From a virus: DNA of 64,000 nt. The stretch is from positions 17,659 to 81,658 of IMG/VR virus record IMGVR_UViG_3300021131_000003; one strand, 5' to 3'. How positions within the stretch are numbered: the stretch's first letter is position 1; each line of letters starts with the position of its first letter. Positions 1-53,738 of the stretch are shown one piece after another. The notes beneath the pieces were generated by a model that worked only from the letters and a program-made list of their open reading frames with translations, made no database searches and was not told the DNA's origin. A program made the translations under genes and the position numbers.

Positions 1-1750
1 TAGCTCCACCACCACTTGTGGTCCATGGCGTAACAACTGGTGAGCTATTCGTTCCACTGATTAAGTTAAAGCTAGGGTTAGTCAGCTCATTAATTCGATT
101 AGCCTTAAGGGTTAAGTGGAGCTGACGAGCATCATCAAACGCTGTGATAGTAGATGCCTGCTCAAACTGTGCGGCATCAAAGTATTGGTATTCGTTGCTA
201 GCTGAACCTGCAGCGGAGGCAATAGAGATAAGTGGTATTGCGTAGGTTGCTCCTGTAGGGGCTGTAGCCGTATAAGAAGGTCTGACAGAGAACGCACCAG
301 TTCCACTAGCTAAAGCTGTGCCATAAGTATCGGAACCGATTTGCACGGAGAAGCGGTCGTACCAACGGATACCTACTTTAACATTTTTGCTTGTAGACGA
401 GTTAGTCGTGTACACACTAAAGATGTAAGACAGACCAGCAGTTACTGGTATGCCCTTAGTTACTGGCTTTGTTGCTCCGCATTGAAGATTAAGAGTCTGT
501 GCACTAGTACTGGTATTTGTTACAGCCATGATTCCCTGTTGCTTATTTGGATACAGAGTTAGCGCTGTAGGTTCATTCCATGGAAGTGGGTATGGATAAA
601 TTACTGGGTATGCCTGTGTTGTAAAGTTCCAAGCATTTGTAGTTGGCAAGGTAAGACTGACGCCAATAGTAAATGAAATAGTGGTTGATGTTACCGCCGT
701 AATAGTAATAGGAGCTGAGCTTGTGCTATTAAACAACGGCTTATCACTGCCAGTTATGTATGCCTTGTTTCCAACCTTATAGTTGTGATTAGGTACTGTA
801 ATAGTTGCGGTAGTGCCAGATGCTGCTATATAAGTAACGTTTCTGCTTCTCATTACAGAGACTAGAGCAGTAGAGTCGCTGCTTGCCCAGTGACCCACAG
901 ATTCTTCAAAAGAAGAATCGTTATAATCAAGCATTAGATTGTGTCCAACTTGAACACCATTAACAGGTGAGTTAGCTGCCGAACTATTAACAGCTGGCAC
1001 AGACCATCCAGTAAATGCTTTTAAGAACTCCTTTAACCCATCGGACGTTCCCTTAGACTTATAAAGCTCTGAAGCGCTACGCGCTAGAACACGAGTTTGT
1101 TGGTAGCCAATCTCAGGTTCATAGGAGATAGCAAGCTCTTGTAAAAGGGGGGGAAGAAGTAACCCACTAATCTTAGTGGTGTCGTATCGATTGACAATTA
1201 AATTAGCCATAGTTTGATACTGGCTAAGCTGGAACCCAAATAAAGCTAAGAACTGATAGAGAGTTGTATTTTGGTCTGTTAAGTTAAATACTGTATTGGC
1301 GCCTTCATTTACGGTAGAGGCTTTATAAATCTCTGGCAGATACCCGTATAGGTTATCAGCAAAGTCATAGTCTTTAACAGATAGTCCTAGCGCGTCTGCT
1401 GCCCTAGTCCACTTAAAGTTAACTCGGTCAAAGATAAACAGTGAGTAGTAAAAGAAAGAGTTCTCAGCTAAAGGGGCGTCTGTGTACTTTCCAGGGTCTG
1501 TTTCTTTATACGCTTGGTAAGACTTATCGCCTTGAAGGTCAAGCTGAACGCCATCAAGTTCGTTTACAGGAAAACCATAAGTATTACGCACAAGCTTAAT
1601 CTTTGACCAAGCTCCTGATGGGCTTGTCCAGCTCAGCTTAATTGTTTTGTAACCAACAGGAGTTGCTTTAAAATTGTTGGCAGCATAGCTAACTGGAATG
1701 TCTCCGCCATATAGAGAAAGACCATAGTAGTTAATACCATAGCGAGCCAT
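1..1750 (-). CDS. Baseplate/tail protein I (P2 gpI-like), C-terminus cut by window edge
   Basis: The frame is open for about 583 codons from its ATG to the window edge. The N-terminal ~60 residues look like an FN3-type beta domain. The middle carries the P2 gpI/phage-tail-protein-I signature: a YLPEIYK motif, then an L.QFL.LFG.QLSQYQ helix, a segment on reaching the end of the tail, and a SKGTSDGLKEFLKAFTG helix. A Ser/Thr-rich beta module of the E1_FCCH-like type (TATITVPNHNYKVGN...) follows. The start overlaps the stop of the baseplate J gene by one base (TAATG), implying translational coupling. In P2-like and CIS baseplates gpI sits with gpJ in the wedge and links to fibres. Confidence 0.8.
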   Translation of the reverse strand, partial: MARYGINYYGLSLYGGDIPVSYAANNFKATPVGYKTIKLSWTSPSGAWSKIKLVRNTYGFPVNELDGVQLDLQGDKSYQAYKETDPGKYTDAPLAENSFFYYSLFIFDRVNFKWTRAADALGLSVKDYDFADNLYGYLPEIYKASTVNEGANTVFNLTDQNTTLYQFLALFGFQLSQYQTMANLIVNRYDTTKISGLLLPPLLQELAISYEPEIGYQQTRVLARSASELYKSKGTSDGLKEFLKAFTGWSVPAVNSSAANSPVNGVQVGHNLMLDYNDSSFEESVGHWASSDSTALVSVMRSRNVTYIAASGTTATITVPNHNYKVGNKAYITGSDKPLFNSTSSAPITITAVTSTTISFTIGVSLTLPTTNAWNFTTQAYPVIYPYPLPWNEPTALTLYPNKQQGIMAVTNTSTSAQTLNLQCGATKPVTKGIPVTAGLSYIFSVYTTNSSTSKNVKVGIRWYDRFSVQIGSDTYGTALASGTGAFSVRPSYTATAPTGATYAIPLISIASAAGSASNEYQYFDAAQFEQASTITAFDDARQLHLTLKANRINELTNPSFNLISGTNSSPVVTPWTTSGGGA

Positions 1751-42161: not shown

Positions 42162-42683
42162 ATGCTCAATATCAGAATTAATCTAACGATTAATCTAAGA
42201 AAGGTGTTTGCGGCAGGCCTAGCAATCTTTATGTTAGCGTCACACCTCATCTCACCTGCATATGCACTGACACGTACATCCTCTGTTCTACATGAGAGGG
42301 TCGTCACAGTGAATCTTACTTATTTAAAGGTAAGTACAACCAAATCCCAAGCAGAAGCCGCTGTAGCGAGCCCATATGCTAAGTACTTTGACCCAGAAGC
42401 CCTTGCGTTCCTGACAACCTATGCTCAGGGTATGCCTATGGCCGAATGGAAGTGCTTAGACAACATCTGGCAGCATGAGAGCCACTTCAACCCTAAAGCC
42501 CTAAACATGGGGTCTAAGGCTTTTGGTATCGCTCAATTCTTGCCAAGCACGTGGGGCAACTATAAGGTTACGAAGACAGCTAGCGCTGCACTACAAATTA
42601 AATACGGCCTACGGTACATCCACAACAGATACGGAGACGCATGTAATGCTTGGAACTTCTGGAAAACTCACGGGTGGTACTAA
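42162..42683 (+). CDS. Secreted lytic transglycosylase (SLT/Rpf-like)
   Basis: 173 residues. Signal peptide: NLRKVFAAGLAIFMLASHLI with probable cleavage after AYA (residue 35). The catalytic domain has the active-site Glu106 in NIWQHESHFNPKAL, then GSKAFGIAQFLPSTWG and GLRYIHNRYGDACNAWNFW. The ATG at 42162 has GAGGAG 6 bases upstream. It cuts glycan strands outside the membrane, so it may aid lysis or superinfection control. It overlaps the WhiB gene by 38 nt. Confidence 0.88.
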   Translation: MLNIRINLTINLRKVFAAGLAIFMLASHLISPAYALTRTSSVLHERVVTVNLTYLKVSTTKSQAEAAVASPYAKYFDPEALAFLTTYAQGMPMAEWKCLDNIWQHESHFNPKALNMGSKAFGIAQFLPSTWGNYKVTKTASAALQIKYGLRYIHNRYGDACNAWNFWKTHGWY

Positions 42684-42927
42684 TGCACCTTATTTTGATG
42701 GGAGCCAGGTCTGCGCTCAAGTAGACCCAGAGCTCTTCTTTCCCGAAGTAGATTCATCTAAACACGATATAAAACGAGCGCTTGCTATATGCAGCGACTG
42801 TGAGTTTAAGGAACCGTGTTTAGAGTTTGCCCTCACTCACGAGAACGAATACATATACGGTATATGGGGCGGTACAACCCCAAAGCAGCGTAGGTTAATA
42901 AAACAAGCTAGAAGAAGGCGTAGATAG
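42646..42927 (+). CDS. WhiB-family transcription regulator
   Basis: 93 residues from the ATG inside the end of the transglycosylase gene (GGAG about 10 bases upstream). The four Fe-S ligands are C23, C49, C52 and C58 (VCAQVDPELFFP; AICSDCEFKEPC), then GIWGGTTPKQRR, the diagnostic G[VI]WGG turn, and an Arg-rich C-terminal DNA-binding tail. WhiB proteins bind sigma factor region 4 and are restricted to Actinobacteria and their phages. Confidence 0.93.
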   Translation: MLGTSGKLTGGTNAPYFDGSQVCAQVDPELFFPEVDSSKHDIKRALAICSDCEFKEPCLEFALTHENEYIYGIWGGTTPKQRRLIKQARRRRR

Positions 42928-44152: not shown

Positions 44153-44932
44153 TTATCGATTAGCTTGTTCCCAAGTCTTAACTGCTGAGTCAGGGTCGGC
44201 TTGATATGGGGCAGTTGTGCCATCTGGTCTAGGAATCTTAACGTCTTCTCTGATTGGGTCAGAAGGCATGCGCTTACCCCAATAACCCATTGGATAGATA
44301 AACGGCTCAGCGTTAGGATTGTTAGTGGGAGTTGGAAGCGGGTTCTCGTTCCATACGCCTTCTTCGGTAACTAATGAGGTTATGCAATAGCGTTCTCCAG
44401 AGGTTACTAATTCAACCCCGTGCTTAGTATCTCCGCTATGAAACACTACTGAACCTGCGACTGGCTTATATTTAAATCCGTACTCTGGGTATGAAATCTC
44501 CCCGCCCTCATAATCATCGTTAGGATAGATTACGGCGCCCCAAATGATTGGCTGCGGCATGTGGCGTTGATTATCAATGTGATAGAACATCTCCACAGTC
44601 GTATCACCCGTTGGGTTAGAGCCAGGCCACATCTTGATAAAGCTAACAGGGTTAGGTTTCCACTCTGTTTGGCGAACTGTATTTAATGTATCAATAATAC
44701 GTTGTACTAGATTAGGTGCTATATCGTTTACAGGTTCAAATGAGTTCTCTAGACCAGGTAGGTTAGAGGAAGAGAGATTGAACAAACGCTGTTTCCAGAA
44801 CTTAACTGGGTTTACAGGTAACTTATCCCACTCATAGTGCCTCATCCACTCCGATACGCGCTTGGTCTCTTCTGGTGTGAAGAAGTCGTAAGCAATCATA
44901 ACGTTTCCGTCGCAATGGGTCTCTATTCTCAT
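44153..44932 (-). CDS. 2OG-Fe(II) dioxygenase 1 (prolyl-hydroxylase-like)
   Basis: 259 residues. Iron ligands H118 and D120 in MFYHIDNQ, H171 in GDTKHGVE, and a 2OG-binding R181 in SGERYCITS. The core strand YPNDDYEGGEISYPEYGFKY and KPVAGSVVFHSGD are family hallmarks. Such enzymes hydroxylate peptides, sugars or small molecules. First of three paralogous folds in the window; it ends the modification operon. Confidence 0.9.
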   Translation of the reverse strand: MRIETHCDGNVMIAYDFFTPEETKRVSEWMRHYEWDKLPVNPVKFWKQRLFNLSSSNLPGLENSFEPVNDIAPNLVQRIIDTLNTVRQTEWKPNPVSFIKMWPGSNPTGDTTVEMFYHIDNQRHMPQPIIWGAVIYPNDDYEGGEISYPEYGFKYKPVAGSVVFHSGDTKHGVELVTSGERYCITSLVTEEGVWNENPLPTPTNNPNAEPFIYPMGYWGKRMPSDPIREDVKIPRPDGTTAPYQADPDSAVKTWEQANR

Positions 44933-44941
44933 TTTAAGCTC

Positions 44942-45715
44942 CTAATTAAACTTGTAAAATAGCTCGTCAGTTGAGTATACGTGATAATCAGTTCTTATTT
45001 TAGGCCAAATATGCCTTTTAGCCTCTTCATCAAAGTCTTCAGAGAACTTTTTAACATCAGGCACTACTATTAGCTCGTTAAGCCTATTCAAATACGGAAG
45101 TCGAGTTTCATAGTCTTTCTTAACCTGCTCAAGGCTTACCGACAACCCTAAGTCTTTAATTAGCTTATCTGCTATGACCATAGGGTCTTTAGGGATGTCT
45201 TCCATACGCATTAAGAAGTTTACGCGCTTAGCTCTTTCTAATACTGTCAAGATTCCAGCCTCAGCATCAATAGACGGGTCAATTGGCCCGTGAATGAATG
45301 GTCGCGTATATAAGAAGTTTTTAGCTTGAAAGTTATTCATCATGTGCGGGATAACGCCATCTTGACCGTAATACAAAGAGCCTATAAGGATGCGCTTATC
45401 AAACAGGGAGGGGTCATACGATGGCGGATTAGGGTAAATTTGAGGCTTACTCTTATTAGCCACTATAAGTTGAAAGAATAAACTTGATATGTGCGTAGAC
45501 GGGTCTCTAAGAGTAGACATGATGTAGGTATTCTCATCAATGTCTGGGTGCCAACAAGCGTGAGCCGTTGGGTTCTCAATAGGCACAGGGTTTATAACGT
45601 TTATTCCGTCTTCCCGCATGTAGGGGATTAGAAAGTTTATAACGTTATTTAATATGAACCGCCCGCCAGTTCTAGGTATGTGTAGATGATAAAACGATTT
45701 ATAAGAGGTTCTCAT
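44942..45715 (-). CDS. Sulfotransferase
   Basis: 257 residues. The N-terminal FYHLHIPRTGGRFILNNVIN is the 5'-phosphosulfate-binding loop of PAPS-dependent sulfotransferases (HIPRTGG, residues 11-18), and STLRDPSTHISSLFFQL has the 3'-phosphate site (RDP..H..S). It transfers sulfate from PAPS to an alcohol or amine. Two genes upstream lies an APS kinase, so the phage carries both donor synthesis and transfer. The target is unknown. It is coupled to the next oxygenase by a one-base overlap. Confidence 0.85.
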   Translation of the reverse strand: MRTSYKSFYHLHIPRTGGRFILNNVINFLIPYMREDGINVINPVPIENPTAHACWHPDIDENTYIMSTLRDPSTHISSLFFQLIVANKSKPQIYPNPPSYDPSLFDKRILIGSLYYGQDGVIPHMMNNFQAKNFLYTRPFIHGPIDPSIDAEAGILTVLERAKRVNFLMRMEDIPKDPMVIADKLIKDLGLSVSLEQVKKDYETRLPYLNRLNELIVVPDVKKFSEDFDEEAKRHIWPKIRTDYHVYSTDELFYKFN

Positions 45716-46413
45716 TATAGATACTTAGCTTTTTCCTCATCAGAGGCATACATTAAGTTTGCATCCCTATGAGCATACGCATTTCTATCATTCATAATTA
45801 CAAATGCGTATTTGAACTTATCATCAAGTATAGGTTCAGCTTTATGAGCATATACGTAATTAGACGGCATAATAACAAAGTCACCAGCTGTCGCTTTATA
45901 TTTTACGTTAAAGTTTGAAAAAGTTAGCTCTCCACCCTCGTAGTCATCATTGGGGTAGCCTACAGCAGATACTACGCACCTATACGAGTGACCATCATCA
46001 GAGTGCTCATTGAAGTATTCACCCATGCCATATCTGACTACGCTATTGACTTCGTGAAACTTCATTATCCCACAGCGGTATAGGGTTGAGTAATGCTGTA
46101 GGCATTGCTCTAAAGCCTCCGTAATAAGCTTATCTACTTCAAATAAGTCTTTTGAGTATTCATCCTCTTCACCAAGTAATCTTGGTGCAAGTTTAAAGTC
46201 CTTACAACGTCTATGCTCGGTGTTTAATGATTCGAACCCAACTCGCGCATCTTTCCAAGCAAAACGGGTACCTTCTTTAGCTAAAGCCGCTTCAATACGG
46301 TTTACTAGGTTCCACTCTTGCTTTAAAGAGTTTTTATAAACAACTATGCCAGGACCTAAGGTTTCATACTCAAGTTGGACTGGAGTGCCGTTCCAATCAA
46401 TAGTTGCGTTCAC
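45715..46413 (-). CDS. 2OG-Fe(II) dioxygenase 2
   Basis: 232 residues. Iron ligands H137 and D139 (YFNEHSDDGHSYRC), H190 (YVYAHKAEP), with K201 a candidate 2OG contact. Core strand YPNDDYEGGELTFSNFNVKY closely matches enzyme 1. GTG start overlapping the DUF2061 stop. A second hydroxylase in one operon suggests stepwise or two-site hydroxylation. Confidence 0.88.
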   Translation of the reverse strand: MNATIDWNGTPVQLEYETLGPGIVVYKNSLKQEWNLVNRIEAALAKEGTRFAWKDARVGFESLNTEHRRCKDFKLAPRLLGEEDEYSKDLFEVDKLITEALEQCLQHYSTLYRCGIMKFHEVNSVVRYGMGEYFNEHSDDGHSYRCVVSAVGYPNDDYEGGELTFSNFNVKYKATAGDFVIMPSNYVYAHKAEPILDDKFKYAFVIMNDRNAYAHRDANLMYASDEEKAKYL

Positions 46414-46727
46414 TCACGACCCCACTTTACCTTGTTCCAAATGCGTTCGTGATAGTAGTACAGAACAATCTTAACAACTAGCTCAATACCAGAAGCCGCC
46501 AAAGCCAACTTACCGTTATGCGTTAAGCCATAGATAATCAAGAACGAGATTAAGTTTCCAAAGAATCTCCAGCTCACTGCCTTAGCAAGTGAACGTGCGT
46601 GAGATACCCACATAATTGGTTCTCTTTCCATATCTGTAGACCATAACCTTTCTTCGGCGTCTCCAATACCTTCCATACCCTCATATACCCATTTCGCGGC
46701 GCTTTTGAGTGGCGCTAATAGCTTCAA
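46410..46727 (-). CDS. DUF2061 membrane protein
   Basis: 105 residues. The C-terminal 60 residues are DUF2061: SLAKAVSWRFFGNLISFLII, then YGLTHNGKLALAASGIELVV and LYYYHERIWNKVKWG, with two TM helices. DUF2061 genes often sit with APS kinase genes in bacteria and phages. The TTG start at 46727 has AGGAG 6 bases before it, inside the end of the kinase gene (47-nt overlap). Confidence 0.85.
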   Translation of the reverse strand: MKLLAPLKSAAKWVYEGMEGIGDAEERLWSTDMEREPIMWVSHARSLAKAVSWRFFGNLISFLIIYGLTHNGKLALAASGIELVVKIVLYYYHERIWNKVKWGRE

Positions 46728-47433
46728 TGTCGTCTCCTAACTTAACTTGCTCAATCCTGTATCCAACGTCTCGACCGTAAACGATGTTAGTAATGTTTGG
46801 CATCTTGACAACCATAGGGTTAAAGAGATGTTCGTCTTCCTCAATATAGCCTTTGACCTCTGAAAAAGTTAGCGGGTCTTTCTCACTTGTGCCTTGAGTA
46901 TCGCGTACACCAATCATGACCTGTGGGGTACGCTCAGTGGCTGCATCATAGAGAGCATGATGACCTTCATGCCAAGGTTGATAACGACCAAGCATGAGAG
47001 TTGTAGGCGCTTTCCAATCAGGAAGGCCAAAGTACTGCACAATGTCTTTTGCAAGTATCTTAGCATTCTTCTCTAAACACTTGTAATCCCAGCGTGTAGG
47101 CGTTTCCCATAGCTTGTTAGTGTCTTCAAAACGGCCTTCTTGGATAGTATCCATCCAAATAACAATATCAGCTTCACCAAAAGCTTCACGCGTTGCCTGG
47201 GTTGGGCAGATAAAGTCAACCACTACATCAAGGTTTTGGTTTGAAAGCATCTTAGCCATCTCACCCATGCGTCGAGAGTGCTCAATACGGTCTTCTGGTG
47301 AAAAACCCAAATCCGAATTAATAGTGGACCGTACATAGTCTGCGTTTAGGTGAACGGCGTTTATTCGGCTGGCTAGTTCTGTAGCCAGAGTGGTCTTTCC
47401 AGACCCTGGTAAACCAATAATCTGGATAATCAA
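46681..47433 (-). CDS. APS kinase fused to HxGH nucleotidyltransferase
   Basis: 250 residues. N-terminal half: P-loop GLPGSGKTT (7-15), then VHLNADYVRSTINSDLGFSP and DRIEHSRRMGEMAKML, the signature of adenylylsulfate (APS) kinase. C-terminal half from ~145: LMLGRYQPWHEGHHALYDAA, the GRxQPxHxGH nucleotidyltransferase motif (HEGH 155-158), and VMIGVRDTQGTSEKDPLTF. Kinase activity would make PAPS for the sulfotransferase. The second domain's substrate is unknown. TTG start with AGGAG 7 bases upstream. Confidence 0.87.
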   Translation of the reverse strand: MIIQIIGLPGSGKTTLATELASRINAVHLNADYVRSTINSDLGFSPEDRIEHSRRMGEMAKMLSNQNLDVVVDFICPTQATREAFGEADIVIWMDTIQEGRFEDTNKLWETPTRWDYKCLEKNAKILAKDIVQYFGLPDWKAPTTLMLGRYQPWHEGHHALYDAATERTPQVMIGVRDTQGTSEKDPLTFSEVKGYIEEDEHLFNPMVVKMPNITNIVYGRDVGYRIEQVKLGDDIEAISATQKRREMGI

Positions 47434-47444
47434 ATGGGTACTCC

Positions 47445-49001
47445 TTAGGTCTTGGTTGGTGGGCGGTAGTTGTGGGTAAGTATACCCTCTGCGTAGAACA
47501 AATCGTTAGGTTCGACATCCAACATAGAGACTTCAATAGGCTCCTGTTTGATATCAATAGAGGTGATGTTGACAGGTGCGTTATTCTCATCAACAAGCCT
47601 ATCGCCAACCTTAAGGTTAGCCATCTGCTGGAACTGCCATACGCCATCGCGCTCAATGAACATCCAGTGTTCCCACGTGAGTTTGTACTGTCCGTTTACT
47701 AGGTAGTAATAAGGCTCTGTATATTGATGGTTGTAGGTGACCTTAGTGGTGCGCTTAGTAATGGTTGAAACAGTATCAGTAGACCAAACAGAGCTTGGGA
47801 ACCATTTAGAACTATCTTCACCGTTTGGATAGGTTGGGATATCAGCGGTCATAACCTCATCGCCAACCTGAAGGTACTCAATAGCAATCTTAGTTCCATC
47901 TGCCTTTGTAACCATAGAACCAACTGCCCAACATCCACCAAAGCTTGGAGTAGCAATAATTACGGTTGGGGTAGCAATAATAACAGGATGGCTAATAGGC
48001 GTAGCGATAATTACTGGCGTAGCAATAATAACTGGCGTAGCAATAATAACTGGGGTAGCAATAATAACAGAATGGCTAATTGGCGTAGCAATAATAGGAG
48101 CGCTGGTAATAGTCAAGGAAGTTCCAATAACTGGTACCTGACCGTCGTAGAGGGTTACTGAGTAGCCACCGTTTGATAATGATGGACAGGTAAATGACAC
48201 CGAGTAAAGACTCTGACTATAACCAACATAGGTATTTCCAACAGTAAGATTAGTAAGAGCCTTAGGGAAGTAGCCGCTAACGGTAACTGTTTGACCCGCA
48301 TAAGCTGGGTTTGGAGAGATACCAGAGATAGAGTTTTGCTGAGCTGGGGTAGCAATAATAAAGCTTGGAGTAGCGATAATTGGGGCAGCAGCTACGGTTA
48401 CTGAGTTACTTGCAACAGAGGCGACGCCAGTTCCATTAGCATTAGTAGCAGTAATAGTAAATGTGTACGGAACACCAGAGCTTAGTCCAGTTACTGTAAT
48501 AGAACCAGCAGTTGTAGCTGTTCCAGTTTTACCGCCTGGTGAAGATGTAGCTGTATAAAGAGTAATGGTTTTTCCGCCATTATCAACTGGTGCAGCAAAG
48601 CTAACAGTGGCAGCACCGCTTCCAGCGCTACCTGCAGTAGCGGAGATAGTCTGAACAGTAGTAGGTACTGTTGTTACGTTAGCGGTTGCAGCTGGGGATG
48701 ATGGTGTTGATGAGCCTTGAGAGTTAACCGCCGTAACCGTAAATGAATAAGGTGAAAGCTGAGAGGGCATGCCTGTAATCTGTATAGGAGAGGCACTTCC
48801 AGTAGCTGTAAATGAAACACCAGAAGCAGTAGCAGTAGCTATATAACTTGTAGCTGGCGCGCCAGTAGATGCTGCAGTAAACGCTACGTTAGCCGCGCCG
48901 TTATACCAAGGCCTATTTGTTCCTACGTCAGTTGCTGTTACGCCAGTAGGTGGGTTTGGGCCTACCTGACGTGATGAGTGGGTAACACCAATAATAGGCA
49001 T
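47445..49001 (-). CDS. FN3-repeat surface protein with C-terminal Hint (intein-like) domain
   Basis: 518 residues. Two FN3-like domains (~15-110 and ~115-205), an IPT-like domain (~215-305, GISPNPAYAGQTVTVSGYFP), a linker of IIATP repeats, then a Hint fold from Cys357: CWAVGSMVTKADGTKIAIEY, LQVGDEVMTA; TWEHWMFIERDG with H445; NLKVGDRLVDE; VSMLDVEPNDLFYAEGILTH and terminal His510-Asn511. Only seven residues follow (YRPPTKT). This arrangement fits a bacterial intein-like self-cleaving domain. Activity is unproven. Confidence 0.82.
   Translation of the reverse strand: MPIIGVTHSSRQVGPNPPTGVTATDVGTNRPWYNGAANVAFTAASTGAPATSYIATATASGVSFTATGSASPIQITGMPSQLSPYSFTVTAVNSQGSSTPSSPAATANVTTVPTTVQTISATAGSAGSGAATVSFAAPVDNGGKTITLYTATSSPGGKTGTATTAGSITVTGLSSGVPYTFTITATNANGTGVASVASNSVTVAAAPIIATPSFIIATPAQQNSISGISPNPAYAGQTVTVSGYFPKALTNLTVGNTYVGYSQSLYSVSFTCPSLSNGGYSVTLYDGQVPVIGTSLTITSAPIIATPISHSVIIATPVIIATPVIIATPVIIATPISHPVIIATPTVIIATPSFGGCWAVGSMVTKADGTKIAIEYLQVGDEVMTADIPTYPNGEDSSKWFPSSVWSTDTVSTITKRTTKVTYNHQYTEPYYYLVNGQYKLTWEHWMFIERDGVWQFQQMANLKVGDRLVDENNAPVNITSIDIKQEPIEVSMLDVEPNDLFYAEGILTHNYRPPTKT
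47936..48110 (-). repeat. Short tandem repeat encoding IIATP linker
   Basis: Units of GGCGTAGCAATAATAACT (18 nt) and variants with ISHS/ISHP spacers give seven IIATP copies here and two more near 48337-48380. The repeats join the beta domains to the Hint domain. Confidence 0.85.
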
Positions 49002-49799
49002 TTAAGCACTCAAATCGCCAACAAGCACCCAGTTATTCGTACCTAAACAGATTAAGGTAGCAGAAGAGTATGCCGTTCTTAGTTTTAGTCCTGGTGTTCC
49101 GTTAAGAGTAACGCCCGTTCCCGCTACGCTTACTCCTGATGTTAAAGCTAGTAAGTGAATCTGCGCACCCGCAGAGAGCGAGCTCAAGCTAGTTGTTACG
49201 TTAAATGCAAAAGCGCCGTTCATCTGAACCATAGTTGCAGAGTCGCTTGGAGCTAATGTGTAGGCCGCAGTCTTAGCCGAGGTATTGACTGCAAAAGAGA
49301 TATAAGAAGTAGAGTCTGTGGACCCATCGGCTTTTAAGAACTGGCTAGAGGTTCCGCTGCTTTTAACAAAAGAGGTTGCAGTAAGGTTACCGCTCTGGTC
49401 AACAGAGGCAAGGGTTGAGCCAGTGTTGCTTTGCCAATCCTGTAGCACTACAGACTGTCCAGATACGCCTTTTATCGTTAAACCCTTAGTTGTTGTGTTA
49501 GGGGTTGTAATAACGTTAGCGTTATCGCTAGTCTTACGGATGTACTGTGTATGGGTATCGGTTACGATTCCCGCTTCAAGGTTATTAAGACGAGCAGCTA
49601 CTGTTCCAAAGGTACCAGTTGGGGTTGTATAAGAGCTAGAAGATGTAGCGTTAGAGCCAACAGCTGGGTTAGCTCCCACAGTCTGCTCAATGATGGTGAT
49701 TTCATCCATCATGTTGTTAATATCTGTAGCGTCTACAATATCTACAGTATTAGCTCTGTGGACAAATCCAGGGTTGGTTCCACTTGGATACGTTGCCAT
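49002..49799 (-). CDS. Tail fibre protein, 265 aa
   Basis: N-terminus ATYPSGTNPGFVHRANTVDI and VDATDINNMMDEITIIEQTV, a common fibre anchor. The middle has a shaft-like TSTGSTLASVDQSGNL-type repeat. The C-terminal ~75 residues (QMNGAFAFNVTTSLSSLSAG, ending NNWVLVGDLSA) match the end of the Mtd_N-type fibre at 19259-19846, so the tip module is shared. It lies next to the Hint protein, which may be a partner. Confidence 0.75.
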   Translation of the reverse strand: MATYPSGTNPGFVHRANTVDIVDATDINNMMDEITIIEQTVGANPAVGSNATSSSSYTTPTGTFGTVAARLNNLEAGIVTDTHTQYIRKTSDNANVITTPNTTTKGLTIKGVSGQSVVLQDWQSNTGSTLASVDQSGNLTATSFVKSSGTSSQFLKADGSTDSTSYISFAVNTSAKTAAYTLAPSDSATMVQMNGAFAFNVTTSLSSLSAGAQIHLLALTSGVSVAGTGVTLNGTPGLKLRTAYSSATLICLGTNNWVLVGDLSA

Positions 49800-50942: not shown

Positions 50943-51123
50943 CTTTTTTCTCCTTTGGGTTACGTAGTCGGAAGGTTGCTACCCACAAAAAGACAGAGAT
51001 GAGGATTGCGTCTCCCACTACAGTCTTGGCAGAACCAGTTAATACAAGCCATGCAGAGAAGAGACCAACAAAGGTCCAAATCTGATTAGCTAAGTCGGCT
51101 AACAAGCCTTTAATGAACTTCAT
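50935..51123 (-). CDS. Small two-TM membrane protein, 62 aa
   Basis: MKFIKGLLADLANQIWTFVG, FSAWLVLTGSAKTVVG and AILISVFLWVATFRL give two TM helices with a basic tail. It overlaps the secreted PA14 gene by 4 nt and the holin-like gene by 8 nt. A second holin or antiholin is possible. Confidence 0.6.
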   Translation of the reverse strand: MKFIKGLLADLANQIWTFVGLFSAWLVLTGSAKTVVGDAILISVFLWVATFRLRNPKEKKDE

Positions 51124-53738
51124 CCGAGTCTCCTTCTGAATCGAATAATCGCGCCGCCAACAATGGTGGCTACTAGTATTTTCTTTGCTTTCTTACGGGT
51201 TACTGGAGACATGTCGTTTCCGATATTAGATAGAGCAACAAAAGCTTTATTAACGGCTTCTGCGCCTGGTATTGCAGCAACGGTTGATGGGAGAGGTGTT
51301 AGAACAACAGGGACAGCAACATCTGGAGCATTAAAAGTAGCTCCTCCTGGTTGACCAATAAATGTCTCGCTAGTAGTAATAGCGTCTGGTGGAATTGGTA
51401 AGCCAGAACCTGGTGGTGGCGCTGGAGGAGTGAGCTTTCCATCTTCGCCAACAACCTGTGGAGCGCTCTGAGTACCAAAGAACTGAATGCCACCGTTCTC
51501 AACACCAACCTTGTCTACTTGGACATGCGCTACTAAAACCTCAGCTGGTGGTACCAAAGGTGTATCCTTAGGCAGAGTAGATGGATTATTTGGAATTAAG
51601 TTAGGGACAGGTGCAGCTGGTGTCGGATTATCCTGAGGTGCGGGTGGAGTTGGCGCGGGTGCTGGTGCGGGACCTGGAGCAACAGGTGCTGGAGTCGGAG
51701 CAGGAGCTGGCGCGTCTGAAGGTGATGAAGGTACAGGCTTCGGCTCTTCTGGGGTTGCTGGAGAGGGGTCTTTAGGTGCGTCAGGAGCGGGAGCTGGTGC
51801 TGGGGCAGGTTCAGGATTTGCTGGTGCTGGTTGAGGGTCTGCGGGTGCTGCAGGTGCGGGCGCAGGGTCAGGTTGAGGATTGGGTGCTGGGTCTGGAACG
51901 GGCGCTGGGTCAGGTGCTGGAGCTGGAGCAGGTTCAGGCGCCGCAGGAGCAGGGGCTGCTACAGGAGCTGGCTCAGGGGCCACTGGTGGAGTTATAGATG
52001 AAGTGGTTGAAGAAGTTGTTGTTGAACTTTCTGTATTTGATGCCGACTGAGACGAAGTATGAGAGGCGTCAACAGTTGAGGACTGGGAAGCACTATCGGA
52101 GGGGGCGCTAGATGTCTGAGAACTTGAACCCTGAGATTGATTCTGAGACGAATCAGTACTTGGAGCAGGCTGCGCAGCAGCTGCTGCAGCGGCTGCAGCA
52201 GAAGCAGCTTCTTGAGCAAGCCGAGCAGATTCAGCCTCAGCAGCCGCTTTCTGAGCAGCAGCTTCAGCATCTTTCTGAGCTTGCAACTGAAGCTGAGAGG
52301 CAACATACTGAGAAGCAGCAATGGAGACTGTGGTAACTGCTGTTTCTAATGCAGTCTTAGCGTCGTTTGCAGCAACCACCGCTGTATTTGCTAGACGATT
52401 AGCCGTATTGACGGCTGTATTTAAATTACTCTGTGCAGTTGCTAAATCCGCTACTGATTGGTCATATGCAGATTGAGCTGCAGCAATCGCAGACTTTTGT
52501 ACACCTACTGCCGTCAATGCTGTCTGCAAAGCTTGATATGCCGCGTCTTTAACAGCTAGTTGTGAATTATACGTAGATTGAGCGCTATCTACAGTTGTTT
52601 GCGCAGTGGAGACCGCAGATACCAAAGTTGGGTCTGGAGCACTAGTAGTAGAGGTGACATGGCTATAGTTAGTTGAAGTTGGAGATGTCCAGATATTGTT
52701 ATATCCCCATCCCATAGTGACGCCTGCGCCACCGCCGTTTTCATAATAATAAAGAGTTATATCTTGAGTTTGGCCTGGAGTTACTGAATACCATTGGCTG
52801 TACGGGCTCCAAGTTAATCCTTGGTCTCTCCAGTTACTTATTGATAGCTGACCGTTTATGTAAAGTTTAGAGCCATCGTCAGAATATACGGCGTACTTTA
52901 TAGAGGTAGTATCTGGAACAGTTATCTGTCCTTTAAACACCACTATCACATGGTCTGATAGACCAGAGTTAAGTATTTGACCGCTTCCCCAGTTAAAAGC
53001 AATAGAAGGGACAACAGTTGTTAGTACAGGCGTTCCAAGGTTATCTAGAGAAGGAGAAGCCCCGTTAGCAGCTTTATAAACAGTTGCTACGATTCCTGGG
53101 GCAGTAGTTGCTACTGAAACAAGAGGCGCTGTAGATAATGCGGTTTGGGCATCCGTAAGAGAAGTTTGAGCGGTGGATAAGTTTGTAGACGCCGAATTTA
53201 AATCAGAGGTAGCTTTAGATAGAGAAGAATTAGCCGTATCGGCGGTGCTTTGTAAAGGTGGAAGAGCCGCTTGAGCTGTTGTAAGGGTAGTTTGATTAGT
53301 AGCAGCAGTTACTGTTGCTGAATCAACAATCTCTTGCGCTGGCGGTATCTGTGCAGCAGCAGTTGTAGCGGCAGCAATAGCGGTATTAGCTACCGATATC
53401 TTATTAGAAGCTTCAGTTACAGAGGTAACAACTGCCGTATCAACAGTTACAGCCTGCGTTATTTCTGGAGTTGGAAGAAGAGTGGTAACCGCATCATTGG
53501 CTTTAGTTACAGCGGTAGCTACCGTCGCAGTTGCTGTATCAATCTTGCTTTGAATAGTAGATAGGTCAACAGTAGTTACTGTTGCAGTATCTTGCACTGA
53601 CGCTGGTGCTAAAGAATCTGTCGGGGCAGGCGAAACTACCGCCTGGTTAGCGGTGTCATCGGCGTATGCGTTTGAGTGACCTAATAAGTAAAAAGCTGGT
53701 GCTGCGGCTAGTGCTGCGATATGTCGCAGTTGTTTTAT
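51120..53738 (-). CDS. Giant secreted PA14 protein, start codon probably ATA
   Basis: About 872 residues if translated from ATA at 53738 (GGGGAG 5 bases upstream). This gives a signal peptide QLRHIAALAAAPAFYLLGHS ending NAYA. Later GTG 53597 has no ribosome site and no signal. Domains: coiled coil (~50-200), PA14 (~210-350; KYAVYSDDGSKLYINGQL), coiled coil (~360-510), Ser/Gln-rich (~510-580), Pro/Ala repeats (~590-720), a globular part and a C-terminal TM with basic end (LVATIVGGAIIRFRRRLG). It is probably exported and anchored in the envelope; PA14 often binds sugars. Confidence 0.7.
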   Translation of the reverse strand: MKQLRHIAALAAAPAFYLLGHSNAYADDTANQAVVSPAPTDSLAPASVQDTATVTTVDLSTIQSKIDTATATVATAVTKANDAVTTLLPTPEITQAVTVDTAVVTSVTEASNKISVANTAIAAATTAAAQIPPAQEIVDSATVTAATNQTTLTTAQAALPPLQSTADTANSSLSKATSDLNSASTNLSTAQTSLTDAQTALSTAPLVSVATTAPGIVATVYKAANGASPSLDNLGTPVLTTVVPSIAFNWGSGQILNSGLSDHVIVVFKGQITVPDTTSIKYAVYSDDGSKLYINGQLSISNWRDQGLTWSPYSQWYSVTPGQTQDITLYYYENGGGAGVTMGWGYNNIWTSPTSTNYSHVTSTTSAPDPTLVSAVSTAQTTVDSAQSTYNSQLAVKDAAYQALQTALTAVGVQKSAIAAAQSAYDQSVADLATAQSNLNTAVNTANRLANTAVVAANDAKTALETAVTTVSIAASQYVASQLQLQAQKDAEAAAQKAAAEAESARLAQEAASAAAAAAAAAQPAPSTDSSQNQSQGSSSQTSSAPSDSASQSSTVDASHTSSQSASNTESSTTTSSTTSSITPPVAPEPAPVAAPAPAAPEPAPAPAPDPAPVPDPAPNPQPDPAPAPAAPADPQPAPANPEPAPAPAPAPDAPKDPSPATPEEPKPVPSSPSDAPAPAPTPAPVAPGPAPAPAPTPPAPQDNPTPAAPVPNLIPNNPSTLPKDTPLVPPAEVLVAHVQVDKVGVENGGIQFFGTQSAPQVVGEDGKLTPPAPPPGSGLPIPPDAITTSETFIGQPGGATFNAPDVAVPVVLTPLPSTVAAIPGAEAVNKAFVALSNIGNDMSPVTRKKAKKILVATIVGGAIIRFRRRLG

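Follow-up and report, generated by a model that had tools for sequence, protein, structure and literature searches.

A phage fibre-type protein carrying a C-terminal Hint domain that resembles type-A bacterial intein-like domains

The window (the whole stretch of 64,000 nucleotides analysed, positions 17659-81658 of a virus record totalling 81,658 bases) encodes what is likely a phage appendage protein of the fibre type with an autoprocessing domain of the type-A bacterial intein-like (BIL) class at its free end. By every sequence feature tested, its Hint domain is a type-A BIL, and because seven residues follow the domain and the +1 residue is tyrosine, it groups with type-A BILs and not with splicing inteins. 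We infer autoprocessing of the fibre-like protein, and the data suggest that related phages may trim or covalently attach fibres with a Hint domain.

The open reading frame was confirmed as a real gene, read on the minus strand. Its domain layout is given in the table below. In the Pfam search with the whole protein, the fn3 model PF00041 matched at 3e-9. The motif MPIIGVTHSSRQVGPNPPT at the N-terminus resembles the N-terminal motif of L011 and L095 and is also listed for L008. Residues 222-296 may form an Ig/TIG-like beta domain, as judged from modelled strands; no Pfam match was found in this region. In the linker that follows, an 18-nt unit is repeated 3.9 times according to TRF, a periodicity test gave a period of 6 (p 0.003 against shuffles), and two further (P/V)IIATP copies lie at residues 206-219. 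The hexapeptide pattern, together with a weak LpxD match in L009 (E 0.023), had raised the idea of a left-handed beta-helix, which is unsupported for the monomer as AlphaFold2 pLDDT of the linker was under 50 in the full-length model.

Features of the fibre-like protein gene and its upstream neighbour, in window coordinates (AF2, AlphaFold2)
Feature	Position	Strand	Basis or remark
Fibre-like protein gene, 518 aa	47445..49001	(-)	ATG directly follows the TAA stop of the upstream gene
N-terminal FN3-like domain, residues ~1-105	48687..49001	(-)	AF2 strands
Second FN3 domain, residues ~120-205	48387..48644	(-)	PF00041 match 125-197
Putative Ig/TIG-like beta domain, residues ~222-296	48114..48338	(-)	AF2 strands 238-285, moderate confidence
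Low-complexity linker, repeated (P/V)IIATP, residues ~297-354	47940..48113	(-)	TRF, periodicity test, copy listing, AF2
Hint (BIL-type) domain, residues 357-511	47469..47933	(-)	Pfam, profile search, AF2, structure comparison
Cys357, position 1 nucleophile, preceded by Gly355-Gly356	47931..47933	(-)	Aligned to intein residue 1
His445 of block B TxxH	47667..47669	(-)	57/58 class A, 21/21 class B
His510-Asn511, C-terminal block G	47469..47474	(-)	58/58 class A; Asn511 aligned to last intein residue
C-terminal tail YRPPTKT, 7 residues	47448..47468	(-)	+1 residue is Tyr512, not Cys/Ser/Thr
Upstream coupled gene, 265 aa, virion-type protein	49002..49799	(-)	Homologues adjoin the Hint gene in other phages

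The Hint assignment was examined by profile and structure comparison. The PT-HINT model (PF07591) scored 28.8 bits with the whole protein and 33.7 bits with the Hint domain alone, above the cut-off of 27.7, and the Clostridium thermocellum BIL domain 2lwy ranked first in the profile search (E 2e-12). An AlphaFold2 model of residues 350-518, built from a 42-row alignment, adopts the Hint fold with pLDDT 94.2 and pTM 0.88. The best solved structure match was Tetrahymena BIL2 (Z 20.2, 1.8 A over 140 residues), followed by 2lwy (Z 18.4), DnaB inteins (18.2) and Hedgehog (16.8). In total 82 chains matched at Z 8 or more, and the 50 entries listed among these matches are inteins, BILs and Hedgehog. 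The structure alignments begin at residue 1 and stop at the last residue of several inteins; Mtu RecA, for instance, aligns over 1..440 with model positions 8..162, the ends of which are Cys357 and Asn511. Given the PF07591, fn3, AlphaFold2 and structure scores, the observed architecture is not due to chance. The features that mark the Hint superfamily were found together, namely the fold, the position-1 nucleophile C357 and block B T442-H445. The other motifs also lie where they had been placed (LQVGDEV 377-383, TWEH 442-445 with H445, NLKVGD 462-467, ILTHN 507-511, and the seven-residue tail). The predicted intein-like domain with a full catalytic set, C-terminal on an FN3 fibre-like protein, is supported. 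Besides the strand, one detail was corrected: the penultimate Hint residue is His510, and the asparagine, Asn511, is terminal.

Among known systems, type-A BIL domains (Amitai 2003; Dassa 2004; summarised in PMC4031507 and PMC7765530) share with the window protein Cys1, TxxH, the terminal His-Asn, the lack of a +1 nucleophile and a variable surface-type host protein, whereas the Hint domain described here, with its predicted activity, lies at the very C-terminal end of a fibre-type phage protein and is followed by a 7-residue tail. BIL2 of the Tetrahymena BUBL1 locus (6y75, 6tmm) is only 25% identical in sequence and, in contrast to the window protein with its FN3/linker and short-tail flanks, is accompanied by ubiquitin-like domains. 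The Hedgehog autoprocessing domain (1at0) has the same fold and a thioester mechanism, but identity is 11%, and the window protein lacks the sterol-recognition region and has seven residues after Hint. The closest counterparts in cultured phages are intein-domain or tail fibre proteins of NCTB, Erwinia phages (SNUABM, Y3, Alexandra) and Dickeya AD1, which are of the fibre type like the window protein and 26-31% identical to it. Those of NCTB and SNUABM_5 share the C-terminal Hint, Cys1 and HN plus a few residues, but their stems are collagen-like or of other kinds and lack a short-period linker ahead of Hint.

Two IMG/VR profile scans yielded 79 and 80 partly overlapping loci (from 162 and 87 confirmed matches), together over 100 related loci from environmental phages, and Hint relatives were located at or near the C-terminal ends of many of the phage proteins. 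A scan of viral contigs with the single protein as query gave no match. When 84,980 bacterial and archaeal genomes were searched with the same profile, a single short MAG contig was found; based on one peptide pattern, this cellular scan shows that the family is rare in cells and not that it is absent from them. The cultured relatives belong to NCTB, Erwinia and Dickeya jumbo phages, and the class B query described below matched no cultured phage.

In the first-scan alignment the Hint domains fall into two classes. Class A has Cys1, TxxH and HN, with one block B exception (L005, SxxQ), and class B has Ser1, SxxH and then HD, YD, KD (one row) or YN (two rows). The split is clean, as every Cys1 domain ends in HN and no Ser1 domain does, and the first-scan pattern contained neither C1 nor HN. 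Across 58 non-redundant class A domains with a mean identity of 29%, H510 and N511 were invariant and H445 was conserved in 98%; this count excluded a small number of rows with poor alignment or atypical ends, one second-scan pattern included HN, so that HN counts are inflated for some of the set, and Cys in 58/58 follows from the definition of the class by Cys1. The first scan, free of C1 and HN, agrees with this picture. Because the catalytic His, His and Asn rank among the most conserved columns of these Cys1 relatives, autocatalysis is probably under selection in them. The +1 residue is Lys in 20 of the 58 domains, Thr in 5 and Cys or Ser in none, leaving 53 without any of the three nucleophiles, and the tails after Hint measure 1-40 residues. 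When the catalytic columns were left out of tree building, class B came out as one clade (support 100/99, counting two rows whose N-termini are missing) and the distribution of Cys1 and Ser1 amounts to one change; a larger tree agrees. This sister clade has swapped Cys1 for Ser and Asn for Asp. A class-3 intein reading of class B through the Cys in INCEP was rejected, since by our own reading that Cys lies two positions beyond block F:4.

The nearest relative of the window protein is L091 (56% identity), then L010 and L013, and all four have short-period repeats ahead of Hint, each different (VIIATP in the window protein; FPPSF, VSPAVSP and VSPVGV in the relatives). Over the last 67 residues, significant periodicity was detected in 21 of 26 class B proteins, against 12 of 81 controls taken elsewhere in those proteins, and in 13 of 62 class A proteins, counted over two runs that differed slightly in settings; many class A relatives from marine and jumbo phages have no short-period repeat. 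When two VIIATP units were searched as an exact pattern, three additional contigs matched. L009 combines FN3, VIIATP and a class B Hint, L008 (4045-4920) has FN3, VIIATP and a small Cys-rich tip without Hint, and L007 (12000-12269) has VIIATP and a different small Cys-rich end, also without Hint; a further pattern match, L089, lay in an unrelated contig and frame and was set aside. Because VIIATP is paired with Hint in L009 and with Cys-rich ends in L008 and L007, stems, repeats and tips look exchangeable as modules. The C-terminal Hint recurs on FN3, Ig-like and collagen-like stems.

Several other arrangements were observed. At L046:5344-6474 the stem has PASTA-like sequence (recognised by eye, not by profile), followed by IINEP/VVVNDP repeats and a class B Hint; PASTA domains are known for peptidoglycan binding. 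In NCTB, a stand-alone degenerate Hint reading frame (L003:2744-3205) lies right behind the gene of a Hint-tipped collagen-like fibre, and some freshwater phages have two Hint fibre genes per contig, for example IMGVR_UViG_3300002835_000068 (L064, L075).

Because the window encodes a tail sheath, major head protein, portal and terminase, the source virus, an uncultured water phage, is, by gene content, a myophage. Its host is probably actinobacterial because of WhiB-like genes at 42523-42927 and elsewhere in the record, recognised by our own reading of the sequence and not by profile match. A search for a second Hint domain in the virus record found none. In 14 of the 15 fetched loci where a homologue of the upstream gene was found, it directly adjoins the Hint gene (gap -30 to +22), in both classes; L008 and L009 have an adjacent homologue as well. 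Within class B phages, the gene pair lies by genes related to the virion genes of the window at 29-31 kb; this pairing and the nearby relatives of virion genes support a role as virion appendage. Annotations call the Erwinia and Dickeya phage relatives tail fibre or virion structural proteins and label the NCTB ones intein domain proteins. We infer that the Hint protein belongs to the virion on the basis of its domains, of synteny and of how its relatives are annotated, the assignment as a structural gene resting on the first two.

Directly downstream, at 44153-47433 (-), lie genes for an APS-kinase plus nucleotidyltransferase, a DUF2061 protein, a 2OG-Fe(II) oxygenase, a protein weakly matching sulfotransferases and a second 2OG oxygenase. 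This gene set next to the fibre resembles a cassette for sulfation and hydroxylation. Homologues of the 2OG oxygenase recur close to other Hint fibres. In addition, positions 51120-53597 (-) encode a protein of 825 aa that combines a PA14 domain with long repeats rich in Pro/Ala and whose C-terminal end is hydrophobic and basic.

In line with known Hint chemistry, after folding Cys357 would attack the carbonyl of Gly356 in an N-S shift aided by T442xxH445, giving a thioester of the fibre at the glycine, and Asn511 would cyclise with the help of His510, so that the seven-residue tail is dropped. As there is no +1 nucleophile, the thioester could be resolved by water, leaving a fibre that ends in ...IIATPSFGG and a released Hint domain. 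Alternatively, the amine of the freed tail could resolve it and re-ligate the tail to the fibre, or an amine or hydroxyl of another molecule could do so, with covalent attachment as the result. The sequence cannot choose among trimming, re-ligation and attachment; N-terminal cleavage and trimming are favoured over attachment. Type-A BILs act without a +1 nucleophile, and cleavage dominates although some splice (PMC4031507, PMC7765530); a Magnetospirillum BIL with Tyr at +1, as in the window protein, did not splice until this residue was mutated (PMC4031507). It counts against active processing that type-A BILs can be slow or inactive. Of the self-cleaving or self-ligating activity originally proposed, the predicted cleavage is well supported by the conservation of C1, TxxH and HN across divergent phages, attachment is possible, and either may take place during virion maturation.

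That the domain glues the fibre on, with a lysine or another nucleophile on a virion partner or on the host surface capturing its thioester, seems rather unlikely to us. Tetrahymena BIL2, the best solved-structure match (Z 20.2), forms isopeptide bonds and conjugates a ubiquitin-like domain to lysines (PMC8616854), and a translationally coupled fibre-type gene neighbours the Hint gene in both classes, but hydrolysis is the default for BILs without a +1 nucleophile. We consider it just as unlikely that Hint is a catalytically idle structural tip, with catalytic residues that are leftover or structural. Class B persists in many freshwater phages without Cys1 and nearly always without the terminal Asn, and L008 and L007 carry Cys-rich tips behind the same VIIATP repeats; however, the catalytic residues are among the most conserved class A columns, and class B keeps Ser1, SxxH and mostly Asp, which would be chemically competent substitutes.

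Two further readings have little in their favour. The fold and blocks A, B, F and G would suit a canonical self-splicing intein inserted as a mobile element, yet its C-extein would be seven residues with Tyr at +1, the domain has just 155 residues and no endonuclease, and its relatives nearly always lie close to the end of variable appendage proteins and not within conserved enzymes. Intein homing or an empty site was considered for L008 and L007 and rejected, as these Hint-less stems bear another, Cys-rich tip and not a clean uninterrupted allele; we regard such an intein as highly improbable. Least credible of all is the role implied by the Pfam name, a pretoxin HINT from which a C-terminal toxin is released: PT-HINT is the best Pfam model and Hint precedes toxins in polymorphic toxins (PMC3482391), but the window protein has no toxin behind Hint, and the seven residues here and 1-40 in the 58 relatives leave no room for a toxin domain. 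Autoprocessing by a type-A BIL domain at the fibre end remains our preferred reading.

To our knowledge, the natural job of BIL domains is unsettled. Phage members of this Hint family are already known individually as annotated 'intein domain' proteins. In an open-access collection of literature, most subscription journals lying outside it, no paper was found on Hint-tipped phage fibres, on the two classes or on the repeat-Hint architecture; the phage inteins described in PMC3556154, PMC5259590 and PMC7412058 were in terminase and ribonucleotide reductase. The Hint family provides many phage examples of BIL domains on fibre-type proteins, some of them in cultured Erwinia, Dickeya and Trichodesmium phages, and the Ser/Asp sister clade would add a naturally occurring variation on Hint chemistry. 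A broader proposal, to which we give slightly less credence than to attachment of the window protein, is that fibre-tip Hint domains in Cys/Asn and Ser/Asp forms constitute a widespread and essentially viral family that might make phage appendages covalently self-attaching, by isopeptide or ester bonding to a partner in the virion or to the host surface, with the fast-changing short repeats as the stalk at the reactive end. Covalent attachment by an appendage, if true, would be a new trick for phages.
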